The notes beneath the pieces are model-generated. The model did no database searches, was not told the origin of the DNA, and saw nothing but the letters and a program-made list of their open reading frames with translations. The translations under genes were made by a program, and so were the position numbers. Of a DNA stretch of 41,779 bases, positions 29,653-41,659 are shown piece after piece. This stretch comes from Geobacteraceae bacterium (GTDB lineage Bacteria > Desulfobacterota > Desulfuromonadia > Geobacterales > DSM-12255), in the NCBI GenBank assembly GCA_013377075.1, contig JACABD010000030.1:6097-47875 (forward strand), in the 5' to 3' direction. Positions within the stretch are counted from its first letter, which is position 1, and each line of letters opens with the position of its first letter.

Positions 29653-29659
29653 AGACGAA

Positions 29660-29693
29660 AGGTCGTGACTTTAATTTAAGTCGCGACCTTTTT
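29660..29693 (+). terminator. Intrinsic terminator after rpoD
   Basis: AGGTCGTGACTT (29660-29671) pairs with AAGTCGCGACCT (29678-29689), 12 bp including one G-U, with a 6-base loop and five Ts. It closes the rpsU-cvpA-dnaG-rpoD operon. Confidence 0.9.
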
Positions 29694-29730: not shown

Positions 29731-31608
29731 ATGAAAAAACTATTTAACGTACAGATCGTTACCGCATTTTCAATCGCTCTCGTGCTTTTTCTCTACTTTA
29801 TGCAGAGCGGCATTCTGGAGAGCTTTGAAGAAAAGACATATGACCTGCGTGTCAAAATCCTCCATTCTCCCCGCCCTTTACCACAAAACCTGGCAATCAT
29901 AGAAATAGACGACAAGAGCATTGCCGAGCTGGGCAGGTTCCCTTTTTCCAGGGAGAATTATACGGCTCTGCTAAATATGGCAAAGACTGCCGGCGCAAAG
30001 GCGGTACTTTTTGATGCGTTCTTCCCGGAAGTTCAGTCAGAGACCATAGACAGAGCGTTTGCAGATGCTGTCAAACGCTCCGGCAATGTAACCCTTGCCG
30101 GAGGAATAGAGTTTGCTGCTGATGGCACTGCCAAGGGGTTTACCTCCAATATCCCGGTGCTTGAGACGGCTGCAAAAAGAGTTGCCCAGATAAATATGCT
30201 TCCGGACAGTGACGGTGTAATCCGCTCAAGTTTGCTTCTCATCCCTTACAAAAATAAACTCTATCCATCCCTTGGTATCTGCGGTGCCGCAGAACTGCTC
30301 GGCGTTGACAGCATCGAGGCTGACAGGCGAAATGTGATACTTGGCAAGATGAAAATCCCAACGGATGCAGAGCAGAGGATGCTGATCAAATATAACGGCC
30401 CTCCCGGTGCATATCAGAGATACTCCTTTGCCGATGTCGCAAAGGGGAGGGTTGCTGCTGAAAATCTCAAAGGCAGGGTGTTGTTTGTCGGGGCAACCGC
30501 ATTGGGCATTTACGACATGAGGGTGACTCCTTTTTCCAACAACTCTCCAGGGGTCGAAATCCATGCCAATGTCGCAGACAGTGTCGCCAATGGCCGCTTT
30601 ATAACCCGTGGCGTTTCCGAGAGCCTTATTGACATAGGGCTTATAATTTTCATGGGTGTTGTCACTGCAGTAATCTCCTGGAAACTCCGTCATCTGGTAT
30701 CCCTTCCTCTTGTCGCAACCCTGGTGGCATTTCATTCTGCCCTGGCCTCCTGGGCTTTTCTCTCTGGAAGCTGGATCAGCGTTGTCTATCCGGTTACTTC
30801 AATAATGCTGGTATCAGCTCTGGTTGCATATCTGCGCTTTTTCATAGTTGATCGACATGCAAGAGAGGTCAGGGCGATGTTCTCCAGCTACGTTACCCAG
30901 AGACTTGTTGACGAGATGATAAAAAATCCGGAAATGGCAAGACTTGGAGGGGAAAAAAGGGATATAACCGTACTCTTTTCCGACATAAAAAACTTTACCG
31001 CCTATTCAGAAAACCATAAGCCGGAAGAGGTCGTGGCAATACTCAATGAATACCTTGATGGCATGACTGACATCATCCTCAAGTGGGAAGGTATTCTTGA
31101 CAAGTTTATCGGCGACGCGATTGTGGTTTTCTGGGGAGCCCCGCTCAAGCAGGAGGATCATGCTGGGCGTGCGCTGAAGTGTGCCATTGAAATGCAGCAG
31201 CGTCTTGAGTCGCTACAGGCGAAATGGGTGGCCGACGGCAGAGAGCCGATCTTCTCCGCCATCGGCATAAATACCGGTGAGGCAATTGTCGGGAACATCG
31301 GTTCTGAAGGGCGAAAGATGGACTATACAGTGATCGGTGATAATGTTAATCTTGGCGCGCGGGTAGAGGGGTTAAACCGCCGTTATGATACGTCGATCCT
31401 TATTACTGAGTATACGCTGGAGAGGCTGAGAACCTCAGTCGCAGACGGCTCGTTCAGGGGTGTTTCAATAACAGGTCTTGAACGTGTGATCGTCAAGGGG
31501 AAAGAGACTCCAGTGGGTATATACTCAGTTGCTGCAATTGATCAAGGGCTGATGGCGACTCTGGTCGATTGTGATCCGGAAAAAATAGTGAGACTTTTAG
31601 AAAAATAA
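29731..31608 (+). CDS. CHASE2-domain adenylate cyclase
   Basis: The 625-residue membrane sensor has a first helix at about 8-25, an extracytoplasmic CHASE2 domain (about 28-290: FEEKTYDLRVK, then IEIDDKSIAELGRFPFSREN, then VGATALGIYDMRVTPF), three helices (about 295-380), and a class III cyclase domain (about 410-600). Both metal aspartates are present (D418 in LFSDIKNFT, D462 in FIGDAIVVFWG). K458 and an aspartate in MDYTVIGD fit adenine recognition, and NLGARVEG carries the catalytic Asn/Arg. So it should make cAMP in response to an unknown external signal. The ATG is 38 bp after the rpoD terminator. It reads into the large propeller gene 53 bp downstream. Confidence 0.93.
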   Translation: MKKLFNVQIVTAFSIALVLFLYFMQSGILESFEEKTYDLRVKILHSPRPLPQNLAIIEIDDKSIAELGRFPFSRENYTALLNMAKTAGAKAVLFDAFFPEVQSETIDRAFADAVKRSGNVTLAGGIEFAADGTAKGFTSNIPVLETAAKRVAQINMLPDSDGVIRSSLLLIPYKNKLYPSLGICGAAELLGVDSIEADRRNVILGKMKIPTDAEQRMLIKYNGPPGAYQRYSFADVAKGRVAAENLKGRVLFVGATALGIYDMRVTPFSNNSPGVEIHANVADSVANGRFITRGVSESLIDIGLIIFMGVVTAVISWKLRHLVSLPLVATLVAFHSALASWAFLSGSWISVVYPVTSIMLVSALVAYLRFFIVDRHAREVRAMFSSYVTQRLVDEMIKNPEMARLGGEKRDITVLFSDIKNFTAYSENHKPEEVVAILNEYLDGMTDIILKWEGILDKFIGDAIVVFWGAPLKQEDHAGRALKCAIEMQQRLESLQAKWVADGREPIFSAIGINTGEAIVGNIGSEGRKMDYTVIGDNVNLGARVEGLNRRYDTSILITEYTLERLRTSVADGSFRGVSITGLERVIVKGKETPVGIYSVAAIDQGLMATLVDCDPEKIVRLLEK

Positions 31609-31661
31609 CAGCCCATGAAGCATTGTTTTCATAGACCAAATCACCTTTCCAAGGGGTAATC

Positions 31662-34600
31662 ATGTACAGGTTTTTGCTCTCCCTTGCACTGTTTCTCTTG
31701 CCGACCTCTCTTTATGCCACTCACCAGGTCAGGTTTGTCAGCGAAATCCCCATCGAAAAGCCGCTTCACGTGGCATCAGACAAAGATGGCAACATATACG
31801 TGACAAGCAAGGATCCGGCTGTTCTGGTCTACTCCCGGGATGGCAAACTTTTGCGCACAATTCAGGTTAAAGACTCTGAAGGAGATCCTGTACTGAAGAA
31901 ACCGACCGGCATAGCTGTGTATGGTGACAGGATTTATGTCTGCGACAGATCAAAAGACAGAGTTGCTGTTTTTTCCAAAAATGGCGATCTGCTTGACACT
32001 CTTGGTGAGGGTGGGAGCGGATCAAAACAGTTCAGCTATCCAGAGGGGATTTTCGTCTACCAGGGGATTGTTTATGTCGCAGATTACGGCAACGACAGGA
32101 TTCAGGCTTTCAGCGACAGTGGCGTTTATCTACAGACAATAGGCAGGGCAGGCCTTGGGGAGGAACTGCTGAAAAGCCCCACTGATGTTGCTGTTGACAG
32201 CAGAGGAAATATTTACGTCGTAGATGGTGACAGTCGGCAGGTTAAAATCTACAGGCAGGATGGCGGCTATGCAGGAAAAATCGCAGGCACTGTAAAACCG
32301 TTTTCACTGGCGATGACTGAAGATGGCCTTTTTGTGACAGATATTGAAAACTATAATATTTCCAAGTTCAACTTTAAGGGGGAGCGTTTTTTTTCCTTCG
32401 GTACACTTGGCAGCGGAAAAGTTCAATTCAAGGAGCTATGGGGAATTGCAGCTGACAGCAATGGGCGTGTTTATGCCGTAGATACGGATAAAAAGACTCT
32501 GCAGATTATTGAAGTCGACAGGCCTGCTACAAGTGAACTGCCGCTGAATGTTGCCCCTCCAACCTCTGTTCAGTGGGTTCGAGCGGTCAACCAGAGCGCA
32601 GGCAAGATAGCGTGGGACAGGAAAAACGGGATTCTCTACGGCATTGATTCTGATAAAAAATCAATTGTTGGACTGAAGAATGAGCAGGTTGTAAAGAACT
32701 TCAATATTAAAGATGTGAACCCGGGCTCAGTGGCTGTCGATGCAAACGGTATGCTCTGGCTCTTTGACAAGGAGTCAAGTCAGTTACTAAAACTTGATCA
32801 GGATGGAAAGCTGCTTCTTTCTGTTGGCGCTTCTGGGAGCAGGGAAGGCTATTTTTCAAAAGTCAGTGATATTCTGATAAGCAAAGAAGGGCTTATTTAT
32901 GTTGCTGATACGAGAAATGACCGGATACAGGTTTTTAACCCTGACGGCGTTTTTATGAGCGCCTTCACAAGAGGGACTGGAGCATCTCTTCTGGAAAGCC
33001 CCATAAGTATTGATCAGGATTTCAAAGGCAATTTTTATGTTCTGCTTGGTTCTCGTGGTTCTGTCGTTGTTTTGTCACCAACCGGTGAGCCTGTTGGCGA
33101 GTTCGGAGGCAAGGCTTCGGGCGTTTTGAAGCTTGAAGAGCCAATAGCGCTGGCCGTAGCCGGTAACGAACTGATGGTGCTTGATGCGGGAAGCAGCAGT
33201 GTCAAGGTATTTACCCTACTTGGTGAGTACAAAAGGGAGTTTGGTGCCAAAGGGGTAGGCAAGGGGGATTTCCGTAAACCAGAATCAATTTCAGTTGCAG
33301 ACTTTAACAGATTCTTTGTCTCGGACTCAGGCAATGCAAGGGTTCAGGAGTTTATTGCCACTTACACTGCTGCCCCTCCCAGGGGGATTGCTGCTACTGC
33401 CGGTATGAGGAGTATTAACCTCTCCTGGAAGGGGCATGATGACCCTTTTGTCGATTCATACAGGCTTTTCAGGAAAAAATCAGGAGAGGCGGATTACAGG
33501 GAGATCGCTGTAATTAAGGAGAACAGCTATAAGGATAGCGATCTGCTCCCCGATGTCAGCTACTCCTACAGGGTAAGTGTCCGTATCAAAAGCGGCAATG
33601 AGAGTATTTCCGTAGAGAGTGCTGTGGCTGTCCCCCTGAAATTTACCCCCAAACCGCCGACATCTCTTAAGGCCGAAAGTCAGGAATGGTCTGTTGATCT
33701 CTCCTGGAGCGCTGATGCAAAAGCATATATTGACCATTACACAATCTACAGAAACAGCGAAAAAGATGGATCTCCGATCCTCATAGGGACAACAAAGGAT
33801 TTGTTCTATACAGAGGGGGGGCTTGATTCCTTTAAGGCGTATACATACCTGGTGAGCGCTGTCAGCATAGATGGTGTGGAGAGCGAGCGGGTTCCTGTCA
33901 ACATAAGTACCATAGTCGCGACAAGACCTCCGCTTGAGATAGATATAATCGAAATGAACGATATCTTCTCTAACACCTATAAAATCTACGAAAACGAGGG
34001 GATAGGCAAGGTTCGGCTGACCAATAACACCAGAAACGAGATAGTGGCGCTGAAGCTGGCTTTCACTGTCAAAGAGTATATGGACTTCCCGACCGAGGTG
34101 GAAATCAAAAGCCTTCCCCCGAAACAGGCGACAGACCTGACTCTCAAGGCGGTATTCAATAACAAGATACTGGATGTTACCGAAGATACTCCGGTGCAGA
34201 CGGAATTGAAGGCCTCCTACTTTGAAAATCAGAAACAACACAGCTTTTCCAGGAACAACACGATCAACCTCTACGAAAAGCACCGGATGATGTGGACCAA
34301 CAAGGACAGGGTTGCAACCTTTGTTACCTCCAAAGATCCGGTAGTGCTTGAGTTTACACGCTCTGTAGTTACCCAGTATGCAGATATCGGTTCACCCCTT
34401 GTCTATGCCGCGGCCATATACGATTATCTTGGACTGACCGGCATGACCTACCTGCAACACCCGAACAACCCTTATCAGATTGTCGAAGGAAAGACTAATT
34501 TCGTTGACTATGTCCAGTACCCAAGGGAAACCCTGAAGCGCAACTCGGGCGTCTGTACAGATCTTGTTGTCCTCTTTGCGGCATCACTGGAAGGTCTTGG

Positions 34601-35366
34601 GATCAAAACCATGCTTCTCGGCACGCCTGATCACCTCTTCATCATGTTTGCTGTCGGTCCGGTTTCAGAGCTTGGCGATTCAACCATGAACGGCATGTTT
34701 GCCATACATGATGGCATTGTCTGGGTGCCGTTTGAGCCTACCATGGTTGGTTCCAGTTTCATGAAGTCCTGGGAGGCAGGCAGTAAGGAGTATTACGAGT
34801 GGAAAGAAAAAGGAATTGAGATCACTGACCTTGGTAAGGCCTGGGGGAGGTACAAACCAGCTACTCTTGCAGCTACTGAGTGGCGTGCCCAGAGTGCCAA
34901 AAGAGGCGATATTGACAGTCGTTACACAAGCGAAATGGTAAAACTGAACAAAATGAAGCTGAAATATACCAGTAACAGATATTTTGCTCAGATTAACAGC
35001 AACCCTTCTGATGGTAATGCCTATCACCAGCTCGGCATAATTTACGGCGAGGCCGGAGAACTGGATGATGCCGGAAAATATCTGGCAAAGGCGCAGTCGA
35101 TTCTGCCGACAAGTGCCGAAATTGCCAATAACCTTGGAAATATCTACTACCTCAAAAAGGATTATGCTTCAGCCTGTCAGTCTTATGAAAAGGCCGTTGA
35201 GCTGGACTCGTCGGACCCATACATACTTGTAAATCTTTCCATCTGTTATCTGAAGATGGACAAAAGAGAGCAGGCTACCGAAATATTCAGGAAGGCGGCC
35301 GGAAAAGATCCTGCTCTTTTGAAGAAATACAAGAGTGTGGCAATTGAATTACTTGGGAGCATGTAA
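31662..35366 (+). CDS. Exported NHL-propeller, FN3, transglutaminase-like, TPR protein
   Basis: This 1234-residue protein starts with a signal peptide (cleavage after about LYA, residue 20). Order of parts: NHL beta-propeller 1 (about 22-285), NHL propeller 2 (about 300-565, with IYVADTRNDRIQVFNPDG and FVSDSGNARVQEF), two fibronectin type III domains (about 570-770, each with a WSADAKAY- or WKGHDDPF-like strand), an Ig-like segment (about 770-890), a transglutaminase-like domain (about 895-1060), and two to three TPRs (about 1115-1230, AYHQLGIIYGEAGELDDAGK and AEIANNLGNIYYLKKDYASA). The putative triad is C965 (GVCTDLVVLF), H991 (TPDHLFIMF) and E1025 (WVPFEPT, where Asp is usual). It may be a periplasmic or surface scaffold with peptidase or cross-linking activity; the substrate is unknown. 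The ribosome site is AAGGGG. Confidence 0.88.
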   Translation: MYRFLLSLALFLLPTSLYATHQVRFVSEIPIEKPLHVASDKDGNIYVTSKDPAVLVYSRDGKLLRTIQVKDSEGDPVLKKPTGIAVYGDRIYVCDRSKDRVAVFSKNGDLLDTLGEGGSGSKQFSYPEGIFVYQGIVYVADYGNDRIQAFSDSGVYLQTIGRAGLGEELLKSPTDVAVDSRGNIYVVDGDSRQVKIYRQDGGYAGKIAGTVKPFSLAMTEDGLFVTDIENYNISKFNFKGERFFSFGTLGSGKVQFKELWGIAADSNGRVYAVDTDKKTLQIIEVDRPATSELPLNVAPPTSVQWVRAVNQSAGKIAWDRKNGILYGIDSDKKSIVGLKNEQVVKNFNIKDVNPGSVAVDANGMLWLFDKESSQLLKLDQDGKLLLSVGASGSREGYFSKVSDILISKEGLIYVADTRNDRIQVFNPDGVFMSAFTRGTGASLLESPISIDQDFKGNFYVLLGSRGSVVVLSPTGEPVGEFGGKASGVLKLEEPIALAVAGNELMVLDAGSSSVKVFTLLGEYKREFGAKGVGKGDFRKPESISVADFNRFFVSDSGNARVQEFIATYTAAPPRGIAATAGMRSINLSWKGHDDPFVDSYRLFRKKSGEADYREIAVIKENSYKDSDLLPDVSYSYRVSVRIKSGNESISVESAVAVPLKFTPKPPTSLKAESQEWSVDLSWSADAKAYIDHYTIYRNSEKDGSPILIGTTKDLFYTEGGLDSFKAYTYLVSAVSIDGVESERVPVNISTIVATRPPLEIDIIEMNDIFSNTYKIYENEGIGKVRLTNNTRNEIVALKLAFTVKEYMDFPTEVEIKSLPPKQATDLTLKAVFNNKILDVTEDTPVQTELKASYFENQKQHSFSRNNTINLYEKHRMMWTNKDRVATFVTSKDPVVLEFTRSVVTQYADIGSPLVYAAAIYDYLGLTGMTYLQHPNNPYQIVEGKTNFVDYVQYPRETLKRNSGVCTDLVVLFAASLEGLGIKTMLLGTPDHLFIMFAVGPVSELGDSTMNGMFAIHDGIVWVPFEPTMVGSSFMKSWEAGSKEYYEWKEKGIEITDLGKAWGRYKPATLAATEWRAQSAKRGDIDSRYTSEMVKLNKMKLKYTSNRYFAQINSNPSDGNAYHQLGIIYGEAGELDDAGKYLAKAQSILPTSAEIANNLGNIYYLKKDYASACQSYEKAVELDSSDPYILVNLSICYLKMDKREQATEIFRKAAGKDPALLKKYKSVAIELLGSM

Positions 35367-35410
35367 TTAAAGTGCAGCTGCAGACTGCGCATCTAACGGA
35401 GGTCTACAGG

Positions 35411-35890
35411 ATGAAAAAACGAATCATATTGTCTCTGGTGCTGGTTTTGACTGCAGTTACTGCTTATGGCGAGCAGAAGGAAGGATTCTGGGAGAAACTC
35501 AGGAACAAGCTGGAGAAGATAACCCCTGTAAAGAAATCCTCTTCAACTACTGCTGTCGGAGGTGTCAGGGGGGCCAAGAACGATGATGCTACAGATATTT
35601 ACTGGAAAGGGAAGGATAAGGCGTCTGATGTAAGTGAAGACGAGCTGCAGAAGTTTAATGCAGCCTATGAGAGCAAAAAGAAGGGTGATAATTATCTGGC
35701 CATGAAGCAGCTGGAGGAGTTCCTTGCCGCCTATCCGCAAAGTGCATTAAGGGCTGACGGGTTTCAGGCAATGGAACAGATCAAGGCTGAAATAAGTGGT
35801 GCGGGATCCTCTCCAAAGGTGGAACCAGCCCAGCCCAAACAGCCGGAAGCCGCACCGGTTAAGGCTGATCCGGAGGCTGGCAAGCCGTAG
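35411..35890 (+). CDS. Small exported helical-repeat protein, partner gene of the propeller protein
   Basis: The 159-residue product has a signal peptide (MKKRIILSLVLVLTAVTAYG, cleaved near residue 20), a basic segment (EKLRNKLEKITPVKK), a TPR-like helical stretch (about 75-130, FNAAYESKKKGDNYLAMKQL and FLAAYPQSALRADG), and a Pro/Ala/Lys-rich tail of low complexity. ATG 35411 is chosen over a start at 35372 because GGAGG lies 8 nt upstream and the signal peptide begins there. It lies 44 bp after the 1234-residue gene and ends at a bidirectional terminator, so the two are probably one operon. It is not a known family; the YaaY/BamD-style single TPR is only suggestive. Confidence 0.8.
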   Translation: MKKRIILSLVLVLTAVTAYGEQKEGFWEKLRNKLEKITPVKKSSSTTAVGGVRGAKNDDATDIYWKGKDKASDVSEDELQKFNAAYESKKKGDNYLAMKQLEEFLAAYPQSALRADGFQAMEQIKAEISGAGSSPKVEPAQPKQPEAAPVKADPEAGKP

Positions 35891-35894
35891 CTGT

Positions 35895-35937
35895 TAAAAA
35901 ACTGATGGCAGGGGGGCTTTTGTCTCCTCTGCCATCA
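35895..35937. terminator. Bidirectional terminator between the convergent operons
   Basis: TGATGGCAG (35903-35911) pairs with CTGCCATCA (35929-35937), with a G/C-rich inner part. On the minus strand the hairpin starts at the mutS2 stop codon and is followed by a run of six Ts (complement of 35895-35900). On the plus strand only a weak T tract follows. Confidence 0.8.
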
Positions 35938-38743: not shown

Positions 38744-39718
38744 ATGAAAATCTCCGTCATCATACCGGTTAAGCCGGGCGGGGCTGTTGCCGCGCTGGCA
38801 GCACTGAAGGGGCTTGACCACGACTCCCCTGACCATGAAATCATTGTAGCAGAGGGTAAAAGGCCGAGCCGCCAGCGCAATCAGGCTGCAAAGGAGGCGA
38901 CAGGGGAGATTCTCTATTTCCTTGATGATGATGCGTTGATTCAGTCGGATGCACTCAAGCGTCTCGTCGCAAATTTCACTGATCCCCATGTTGCTGCAAT
39001 CGGCGGCCCGTCAATCACCCCTTCAAGTGATACCCCGTTCCAACGTGCCGTTGCATGGGCTCTTGCATCATCTTTGGGGGGTGGCGCAATCAGGAACCGC
39101 TACAGGAGCGTCGGGGTGCTGCGGGATGTCGATGACAGTGAGTTGATACTCTGCAATCTGGCCTTCAGAAAGGATGTCTATCTCTCATTCGGCGGCCTTG
39201 ATGAGCGACTCTATCCGAACGAGGAGAATGAACTGATAGACAGGCTGCTCAAATCCGGCCATCGGCTCCTGCATGATCCGGAAATGTATGTGCAGCGAAG
39301 CCAGCGCCCGACTCTGGCAGCATTTGTCAGGCAGATGAAGACTTATGGCAAGGGGAGGGCAGAGCAGACGCTCATAAGCCGATCCTTGAGCTTCAAGGCA
39401 GTTATCCCGGCTCTGTTTGCCCTGTACCTGCTAACGCTTCCATTTATGGCGTTTTACGGGTGGTATCTGCTGCCCGGATTGGCCTATGCTGCTCTGCTTG
39501 CTGCAAGTTCCAGCCAGGCAATCTTAAAAGGAGAAGCTGCAATTGCGCTTCGCTTGCCGCTTGTCTACACGCTGCTTCACTTCTGTTACGGCGCCGGGTT
39601 TATCTCAGGGTTCTTTGCTCCAAGATATAAAGGTGAGGAAGTAGTACGGGCAGAGGTTCAGATAAAGTGTCTCAAAGAATTCGGCAGTTGCTGGTCAAGT
39701 AAGTCAGTCATCAGCTAA
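38744..39718 (+). CDS. Family 2 glycosyltransferase, membrane-associated
   Basis: The 324-residue protein has a GT-A fold catalytic domain of the GT2 type: MKISVIIPVKPGG at the start, a metal/nucleotide aspartate motif D61-D63 (YFLDDDALIQ), and a later FGGLDERLYPNEENELIDRL region that holds the ED-type acidic residues. The last 110 residues contain about three membrane helices (about 218-240, 243-262, 275-300), so it works at the inner face of the membrane. The sugar donor and acceptor cannot be told. It is divergent from the release-factor/mutS2 pair, with a 98-bp gap, and shows no operon partner here. Confidence 0.9.
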   Translation: MKISVIIPVKPGGAVAALAALKGLDHDSPDHEIIVAEGKRPSRQRNQAAKEATGEILYFLDDDALIQSDALKRLVANFTDPHVAAIGGPSITPSSDTPFQRAVAWALASSLGGGAIRNRYRSVGVLRDVDDSELILCNLAFRKDVYLSFGGLDERLYPNEENELIDRLLKSGHRLLHDPEMYVQRSQRPTLAAFVRQMKTYGKGRAEQTLISRSLSFKAVIPALFALYLLTLPFMAFYGWYLLPGLAYAALLAASSSQAILKGEAAIALRLPLVYTLLHFCYGAGFISGFFAPRYKGEEVVRAEVQIKCLKEFGSCWSSKSVIS

Positions 39719-39898: not shown

Positions 39899-41659
39899 AT
39901 GAAATTCAAGTCTCTTATGACTGCCATCTGCGTACTGGCAACGGCGAACATCGTCTCTGCCGCACCGTTCGCTTATGTAGCCAATAGCGGCACCAAAAAT
40001 GTATCGGTTATAGATACAGCAACCAATACAGTCACTGCAACTGTCGCTCTACCTGACACACAGCCAACGATTCATCCCTATGCGTACAGTGTGACAGTAG
40101 GTGCTTCAGGCCAGTATGTCTATGTTGGCCTCCAGGATACCAACGAGGTTACAGTCATTGATGCTGCTACAAATGCCGTAGTTAAGCGGATCGGGCTTGG
40201 TACAGACTCCCCTGGCGGATTGGCGGTAAATGCCGCGGAAACGCGTCTCTATGTAACCAGCAACAAGAGTAATACCCTCATCATAATTAACATAACCGGA
40301 TCCGGGGCCAGTGAAATTACCCGGGTGGCGGTAGAAACTGCTGCGCAAAGTAACCCGGAAGGTGTTGTGCTCTCTCCTGACGGCAAAAAAGCTTATGTCG
40401 CCAACTCAACAACTGGATCAATTGCAGAGATTTCTCTTGATGAAGCCAATAATGTTTATACAAGAACAAATCTGATTTCTCTCGTCAACAATACATCCCC
40501 GTACGGACTGGCAATTAATTCAACCGGTACGAAGCTCTATGCTGCAAGTTATAATGGAACTGCTTCAGTTATAAACACTTCAACAAGGGCTGTAACTGAT
40601 CTTCCCGTTGCCGCTGGTTACTCGGTTTCTGTTAGCGCTGACAACAGCAAGGTCTACTTTCCTGCAGTAGGTCTGGATAAAATTTATGTTGCTGATGGTA
40701 CCGCTGATACCGTTTCCGCAACAACATACTCTGTGCCGGGTGCTCCTTGGGGCAGTGCAATCGCTCCGAACGGAAAACTTTATCTGGCTATGTACAGCGG
40801 CCCTGATTCAGTCAAGGTTTTTGATCCTACAAGCAACACTGTGACAAGTACTATTGCTCTTCCCGCCGGTGCAAAGCCGATCAGCATGGGGGATTTCACT
40901 GGACCTGCTTTCAATAATACCATTACTGCAACATCAGTGACCAACTGCACTATTACCCCTTCAGGGGCAATTCCGGTCAACAGCTACGGCCGTACTTTCT
41001 CAATGACAACTACTGGTACAGGTGTCTGCAATTGGGTTGCCGATGCTACTAATACCGGAAACAGTGGCAGCAGTTATGCCTTTGCAACTCCTGTAAATGC
41101 TGATCATGCCATTACCGCCCAATTCACAGCAGGAACTCCTTACATTCTTACTGCTAGCTGGATTGCAACACAAGGCGGATGGATTGTGAGTAACCCTGCC
41201 GGAATTAATGCAACCAGCCAGAGTGCCACATTTGCTAGCGGAACATCCGTCATTCTTGGAGTTAATGATGGCAGTGCCTATCAGGTTCAGGCAGGCTCAT
41301 GGACCGGCGACTGTACAGGTTCACTTTCGACCTGTACTGTTGTTATGAACGCAAACAAAACCTTTGGTGTTACCATTATTCCAAAAGTAATAGGTGGTGG
41401 ACCAATTTATAACGCGACTAAATCCACTTATCATCAGACGCTTGCCGAGGCTACCGGTGCTGCAACAACTGGTGATACAATCAAGATTTCTACCGCATAC
41501 ACAACTGGCGGTTCAACAACAGGTACTACAGGTGTTACTGTAACGCTTAGCGGTGGTTGGGATCAGACATTCACTACTCAAACAATACCTAGCCCAACAT
41601 CTATGGGCGCTGTTACAATAACAGGTGTTGCAGTTATTGCCACCAACTTGAAAATATAG
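39899..41659 (+). CDS. Secreted YVTN beta-propeller protein with bacterial-repeat C-terminus
   Basis: The 586-residue protein has a signal peptide (cleavage near IVSA-APF, residue 21-22) and a seven-bladed YVTN-type propeller (about 22-335; FAYVANSGTKNVSVIDTATN, then YVYVGLQDTNEVTVIDAATN). Two cysteine-bearing bacterial-repeat modules follow (about 340-495). The last 90 residues (TYHQTLAEATGAATTGDTIK, then VTLSGGWDQTF, then VTITGVAVIATNLKI) look like a shortened form of a beta-strand domain that ends many Geobacter surface proteins. AGGAGG lies 7 nt before the ATG. It is likely exported; its ligand is unknown. Two strong terminators follow. Confidence 0.9.
   Translation: MKFKSLMTAICVLATANIVSAAPFAYVANSGTKNVSVIDTATNTVTATVALPDTQPTIHPYAYSVTVGASGQYVYVGLQDTNEVTVIDAATNAVVKRIGLGTDSPGGLAVNAAETRLYVTSNKSNTLIIINITGSGASEITRVAVETAAQSNPEGVVLSPDGKKAYVANSTTGSIAEISLDEANNVYTRTNLISLVNNTSPYGLAINSTGTKLYAASYNGTASVINTSTRAVTDLPVAAGYSVSVSADNSKVYFPAVGLDKIYVADGTADTVSATTYSVPGAPWGSAIAPNGKLYLAMYSGPDSVKVFDPTSNTVTSTIALPAGAKPISMGDFTGPAFNNTITATSVTNCTITPSGAIPVNSYGRTFSMTTTGTGVCNWVADATNTGNSGSSYAFATPVNADHAITAQFTAGTPYILTASWIATQGGWIVSNPAGINATSQSATFASGTSVILGVNDGSAYQVQAGSWTGDCTGSLSTCTVVMNANKTFGVTIIPKVIGGGPIYNATKSTYHQTLAEATGAATTGDTIKISTAYTTGGSTTGTTGVTVTLSGGWDQTFTTQTIPSPTSMGAVTITGVAVIATNLKI

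Follow-up and report, generated by a model that had tools for sequence, protein, structure and literature searches.

A transglutaminase-like exported protein and its small motif-bearing partner beside a CHASE2 cyclase gene in a Geobacteraceae genome

Does a gene for a CHASE2 cyclase, closely followed by genes for a large and a small exported protein, mark a single system, and which of the three genes belong together? On the + strand of the window, i.e. the whole stretch of 41,779 nucleotides that was analyzed, three open reading frames of 625, 1234 and 159 aa (genes 1, 2 and 3) are separated by gaps of 53 and 44 bp, which confirms the three co-directional genes of the original prediction (Table 1). 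The 44-bp value follows from placing the gene 3 start at ATG 35411, where the signal peptide MKKRIILSLVLVL begins, rather than at the longer listed alternative, GTG 35372. The predicted flanking terminators hold up as well: a strong hairpin follows rpoD, and a hairpin on the side of the convergent mutS2, read by eye and absent from the terminator scan list, has its better T-run facing mutS2. The scan predicted no + strand terminator in either gap, and a terminator separating the cyclase from the rest, which the original prediction had named as evidence against it, was thus not seen. The three-gene arrangement exceeds chance because it recurs in distant genomes at differing chromosomal sites. 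Elsewhere in the window, a 586-aa protein (39899-41659) with matches to SGL/lactonase-type beta-propellers adjoins a family 2 glycosyltransferase (38744-39718).

Table 1 Features of the three-gene locus, in window coordinates.
Feature	Coordinates	Strand	Basis
Rho-independent terminator after rpoD, upstream cluster boundary	29657..29692	+	15-pair stem, T-run
Gene 1: class III cyclase with transmembrane helices and a periplasmic CHASE2 sensor	29731..31608	+	Pfam CHASE2, Guanylate_cyc; motifs
Gene 2: exported 1234-aa protein	31662..35366	+	ORF, Pfam, orthologues
Gene 2, NHL beta-propeller (aa 25-566), not retained in all relatives	31734..33359	+	Pfam NHL
Gene 2, two fibronectin type III domains	33375..33932	+	Pfam fn3; AlphaFold2 strands
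Gene 2, Ig-like and transglutaminase-like region, aa 760-1045	33939..34796	+	Alignments A2, A3; Pfam DUF553
Gene 2, C-terminal TPR superhelix, aa 1111-1223	34992..35330	+	Pfam TPR; VIA-align
Gene 3: small exported partner, 159 aa	35411..35890	+	Alignment A4; genome distribution identical to that of gene 2
Gene 3, basic amphipathic segment FWEKLRNKLEKITP, after the signal peptide	35474..35530	+	Helix in model
Gene 3, peptide motif TTAVGGVRGAKNDDATDIYWKG	35546..35611	+	Conservation; predicted disorder
Gene 3, single TPR-like helical hairpin, aa 76-131	35636..35803	+	pLDDT 85-92; TPR_6 in relatives
Hairpin GATGGCAG...CTGCCATC, between gene 3 and convergent mutS2	about 35903..35936		Sequence read by eye

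The three proteins and their conserved parts

In gene 1, both Pfam matches lie above their cut-offs (CHASE2, E 4e-54; Guanylate_cyc, E 2e-22), which bears out the proposed membrane cyclase with a CHASE2 sensor. The motifs FSDI, KFIGDA and YTVIGDNVNLGAR retain the metal, lysine, Thr and Asn/Arg positions; by motif, the ATP-type catalytic residues are present and cyclase activity is predicted, and the Thr position presumably marks an adenylate cyclase of class IIIb.

Gene 2 matches the Pfam families NHL, FN3 (two domains), DUF553 (transglutaminase-like) and TPR, and its C-terminal superhelix aligns with TPR structures at VIA-align Z scores of 17-20. The transglutaminase-like (TGc) fold rests on Pfam matches near the cut-off, namely DUF553 in gene 2 itself (25.0 bits vs. 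20.5) and Transglut_core in the L117 relative (23.6 bits vs. 23); the AlphaFold2 model of aa 656-1234 has a pLDDT of 89.5, TPR and FN3 structures took up the match lists of the structure searches, and a sequence search found no solved homologue of the Ig-TGc region. The possible catalytic triad noted at the outset gains support from conservation: C965, H991 and E1025 do not vary among 24 aligned relatives from several classes at 31-79% identity (alignments A2 and A3), the acid position being an invariant Glu where the transglutaminase-like triad has Asp or Asn. The propeller, on which the original prediction laid stress, fares differently, being swapped for Reg_prop in L118 and missing in L113-L115 and L121. 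The signal is of the Sec type in the window and, by eye, lipoprotein-like in L016-L019 and L175. The propeller is replaceable, and the TGc-TPR part and the gene 3 partner are not.

Gene 3 itself has no Pfam domain match; however, TPR_6 is found at E < 1 in 8 of 11 relatives. What the original prediction missed is the obligate partnership with gene 2 and the location of the strongest conservation, which lies in a disordered motif. The most conserved stretch, TTAVGGVRG...YWKG, has 3.6 bits per column in its core compared to 2.3 in the folded TPR hairpin, and is predicted to be disordered (pLDDT < 50 at aa 41-61); conservation of this degree in a segment with predicted disorder is therefore suggestive of a recognition peptide. 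It is preceded by the basic amphipathic segment, with conserved W27, K33 and P39, and by TP, and its place is taken in distant relatives by PTAVAGLRG or SAVAGVKG. A scan of 1527 ORFs from 27 loci for the motif gave 24 matches, all of them the partner or a fused copy, which indicates a low background and is no independent test because the search pattern was written from these very sequences. In L118 and L119, a small exported FecR-like protein adjoins the TGc gene and bears the module of helix and motif, ending in TIGGTRG...DHYW and TIGATRG...DHSW, respectively, and in L117 the TGc protein itself carries a basic helix and LGVRG...LLHW at its C-terminal end. Gene 3 was also considered as a FecR protein, given that GVRG resembles the RGT stretch of FecR, but Pfam FecR matches neither gene 2 nor gene 3 nor the gene 3 relatives, and the resemblance was kept as a possible origin only.

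An exact pair and an optional cyclase

The distribution of genes 2 and 3 was analyzed with profiles of the Ig-TGc region (A2), the TGc region (A3) and gene 3 (A4). In the class of the window, A2 matches 15 of 277 genomes, and full-length A4 matches (E 1e-42 or better) occur in exactly the same 15; the other A4 matches listed are short, lie nearly all in the TPR part and have E values no better than 1e-7. Among the 63 genomes of a second class, around G455, A3 and A4 match the same 18, 14 of which were not used in building either model (4 were). In an even phylum sample, TGc was found in 10 of 395 genomes, with gene 3 matched beyond its TPR part in 7; the remaining three are L117, L118 and L119, with the motif fused or on a FecR-like partner. 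The TGc gene and its partner adjoin wherever contigs allow, with one gene between them in L241; in G182 the partner stands apart from the TGc gene, which a contig end cuts elsewhere, the two genes of G719 are each at a contig end, and the L017 contig ends just past gene 2. These counts include related genomes, which are not independent, and A4 was built from TGc-gene neighbors; however, this does not account for the lack of full-length partners elsewhere. Genes 2 and 3, which had been predicted to belong together, are thus the core unit.

Two further observations concern the surroundings of the pair. In L210 (G182:C51, 1898-9915), the gene 3 homologue directly follows pilB-pilT-pilC-pilS-pilR-like genes (named by eye), which resemble a run of type IV pilus regulatory genes. 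In L244 (2037-3341) and L240 (300-1568), from two genomes of one family, an exported protein near the TGc pair carries a cytochrome-like CxxCH motif (ACSTCHFQHYPALNAFGRAFK).

The cyclase is linked to the pair less strictly. By tblastn, a CHASE2 cyclase was located immediately 5' of gene 2 in 10 of the 15 class genomes with the pair (G000, G001, G002, G069, G550, G622, G623, G647, G651 and G653), as well as directly upstream in L016, L017 and L019, in divergent orientation in L018 and in convergent orientation in L116. It is missing at the locus in the other five class genomes (G009, G010, G077, G090 and G551): in G009 and G010 synteny is retained, gene 2 still following rpoD with no cyclase between them, and in G551 and G077 cyclase orthologues are present and unlinked to the pair. 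In L242-L244, from another class than that of the window, the gene after the pair encodes a HAMP class III cyclase lacking CHASE2, i.e. a second, unrelated cyclase type in the same place. On the cyclase tree, linked cyclases cluster without forming a single clade (6 changes vs. a shuffled mean of 10.6, with 2 of 500 shuffles as low as observed; free_L160, entered as unlinked, later proved to be linked). The neighborhood survey of the 1234-residue protein proposed in the original prediction thus divides that prediction: genes 2 and 3 travel together and the tie to a class III cyclase recurs across lineages, but the three genes are not one obligate set, given the five class loci without the cyclase. 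Obligate membership of the cyclase was therefore rejected; the unit often has it as a third member but can lack it. In three genomes, a GAF-HD-GYP-type protein, identified by Pfam in L134 (11744-13369) and by sequence in L135 and L139 (4857-6473), lies beside the cluster, with a possible link to c-di-GMP.

Comparison with known systems

CHASE2-FecR-TPR clusters, such as those of Campylobacterota, S. meliloti cyaD1/SMc02177 and the mtxA loci, likewise combine a class III cyclase bearing CHASE2 with neighboring exported proteins of the TPR, FecR or Ig-like kind, and the accessible parts of these reports do not mention TGc for them (PMC9239204, PMC5498481, PMC4439547). Of the components of a FecR-CHASE2-TPR cluster, the locus has the exported TPR protein, in the gene 2 C-terminus, and lacks FecR (PF04773) beside the cyclase; its cyclase neighbors are instead a transglutaminase-like enzyme and an obligate motif partner, without Pfam FecR. 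Classical TPR-FecR-CHASE2 cyclase clusters were also observed in the window's own genome (L179, G000:C1, 10571-12817) and in G090 (L180, 10422-12474), both adjoining long exported repeat proteins.

On the enzyme side, the closest parallels are the periplasmic transglutaminase-like proteases LapG and DvhG with their adhesins LapA and DvhA. Like the predicted enzyme of the locus, these are exported Cys-His-acid enzymes with a link to a second messenger and a dedicated partner, in which a helix, a turn and a short Ala/Gly motif occupy a disordered stretch; LapG-type substrates have a targeting helix, a DP turn and [TAP]AAG (PMC13090378). The likeness is one of layout, cleavage of gene 3 being putative, and its peptide resembles the LapG site over a short stretch, perhaps by coincidence. 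The differences are that the acid is Glu, in contrast to the Asp of LapG and HvyA, that the enzyme is fused to a propeller, FN3 and TPR, that the partner is a small TPR protein whereas theirs is a giant adhesin, and that a cyclase stands in place of the c-di-GMP receptor LapD; neither a LapD-like receptor nor a giant RTX adhesin was seen among the locus neighbors examined. HvyA, the Caulobacter BTLCP, is likewise exported and homologous to transglutaminase-like cysteine proteases, and its catalytic residues are essential, but it is a stand-alone domain with a C/H/D triad and a capsule function (PMC4241560).

The N-terminal part of NCBIfam NF058533 (anti-phage ProA) is matched by all 12 A2 members (best E 1.5e-11; 12-237 for gene 2 of the window, with the Ig-TGc match region at 33897-34976), and the Ig-TGc region is therefore probably common to gene 2 and ProA, although the match, at 35 bits vs. 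a cut-off of 1500, covers an eighth of the model. An anti-phage system was considered and rejected: the ProA match is partial, PADLOC reports gene 1 only via generic cyclase (PycC) models and gene 2 weakly, and no defence context was seen around the pair. Literature searches, of incomplete coverage, gave no paper on ProA, no account of the gene set under CHASE2 with transglutaminase or NHL, and no TGc-partner pair; to our knowledge, the pair has not been described. The locus thus appears to be of the CHASE2 envelope-signaling kind, built on an apparently undescribed enzyme-partner pair.

A tentative mechanism and its rivals

The reading that we prefer, tentatively, is that genes 2 and 3 form an envelope enzyme-partner pair in which the TGc domain recognizes or processes the partner peptide and the CHASE2 cyclase reads the resulting state as cAMP. 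The exported TGc domain, between the Ig-like domain and the TPR superhelix, would act as a cysteine catalytic domain (C965-H991-E1025), with the swappable beta-propeller as its input domain. In gene 3, a basic amphipathic helix would lead into an unstructured peptide, [TS][AS]V[AG]G[VLT][RK]G-x(5-12)-YW, for recognition by the TGc-TPR part. By analogy with LapG and DvhG, the TGc domain would recognize and probably process this peptide, the likeliest chemistry being cleavage or covalent modification; alternatively, the TGc enzyme may be gated by it. In the lineage of the window, the state of the pair may be read through contact with CHASE2 in the periplasm and put out as cAMP. Periplasmic input that restrains or releases CHASE2 is plausible because cAMP production in S. 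meliloti is constitutive with a CyaD1 construct that lacks CHASE2, according to the accessible part of that report (PMC5498481). More broadly, and with somewhat greater doubt, the locus may represent an undescribed enzyme-tag system, in which the TGc domain and a disordered tag (helix, GVRG, YW) are always together in the examined genomes, with three kinds of carrier for the tag (small TPR protein, FecR-like protein, enzyme itself) and with propeller inputs and cyclase outputs that are interchangeable.

It is rather unlikely, but deserves weight, that nothing is catalyzed and that the TGc and TPR parts only bind the peptide, forming a structural outer-membrane or peptidoglycan sensor that feeds CHASE2. 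TPR superhelices do bind peptides, and such a scaffold would be comparable to the FecR and TPR proteins adjoining other CHASE2 cyclases, as in the cluster of the window's own genome and, as far as the accessible parts of the reports go, in the FecR and TPR clusters of Campylobacterota (PMC9239204) and beside the Ig/TPR protein MtxA of magnetotactic bacteria (PMC4439547). However, invariance of C, H and E at such divergence and across several classes exceeds the need of a dead fold.

The remaining alternatives detach the cyclase from the pair. CsgG-like or GNA1162-like lipoproteins adjoin the pair in L113-L115 and L232, and a GNA1162-like match, below its cut-off, lies within the L231 TGc protein, as might be expected if the pair served outer-membrane assembly or export and either modified or chaperoned a surface product, the cyclase being an independent regulator that in one lineage happens to be co-transcribed; this is unlikely, considering that the association with a cyclase is seen repeatedly, for two unrelated types of cyclase and in several orientations. 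Quite improbable is a locus of two genes alone with the cyclase as an unlinked neighbor: the syntenic loci without a cyclase in G009 and G010 and the unlinked orthologues in G551 and G077 would fit it, but adjacency in two thirds of the class genomes with the pair, despite about 1-5 CHASE2 proteins per genome, and the clustering of linked cyclases on the tree, rarely equaled by shuffling, argue against it.

Taken as an enzyme-partner pair with an optional cyclase, the genes look like an undescribed system that senses or processes something in the envelope. Little is understood of what CHASE2 cyclases receive as input, and substrates are known for few transglutaminase-like envelope proteases; within a single small cluster, the locus brings together candidates for an enzyme, its peptide substrate and the messenger output, and the exact genomic co-occurrence shows which of these parts deserve testing first.
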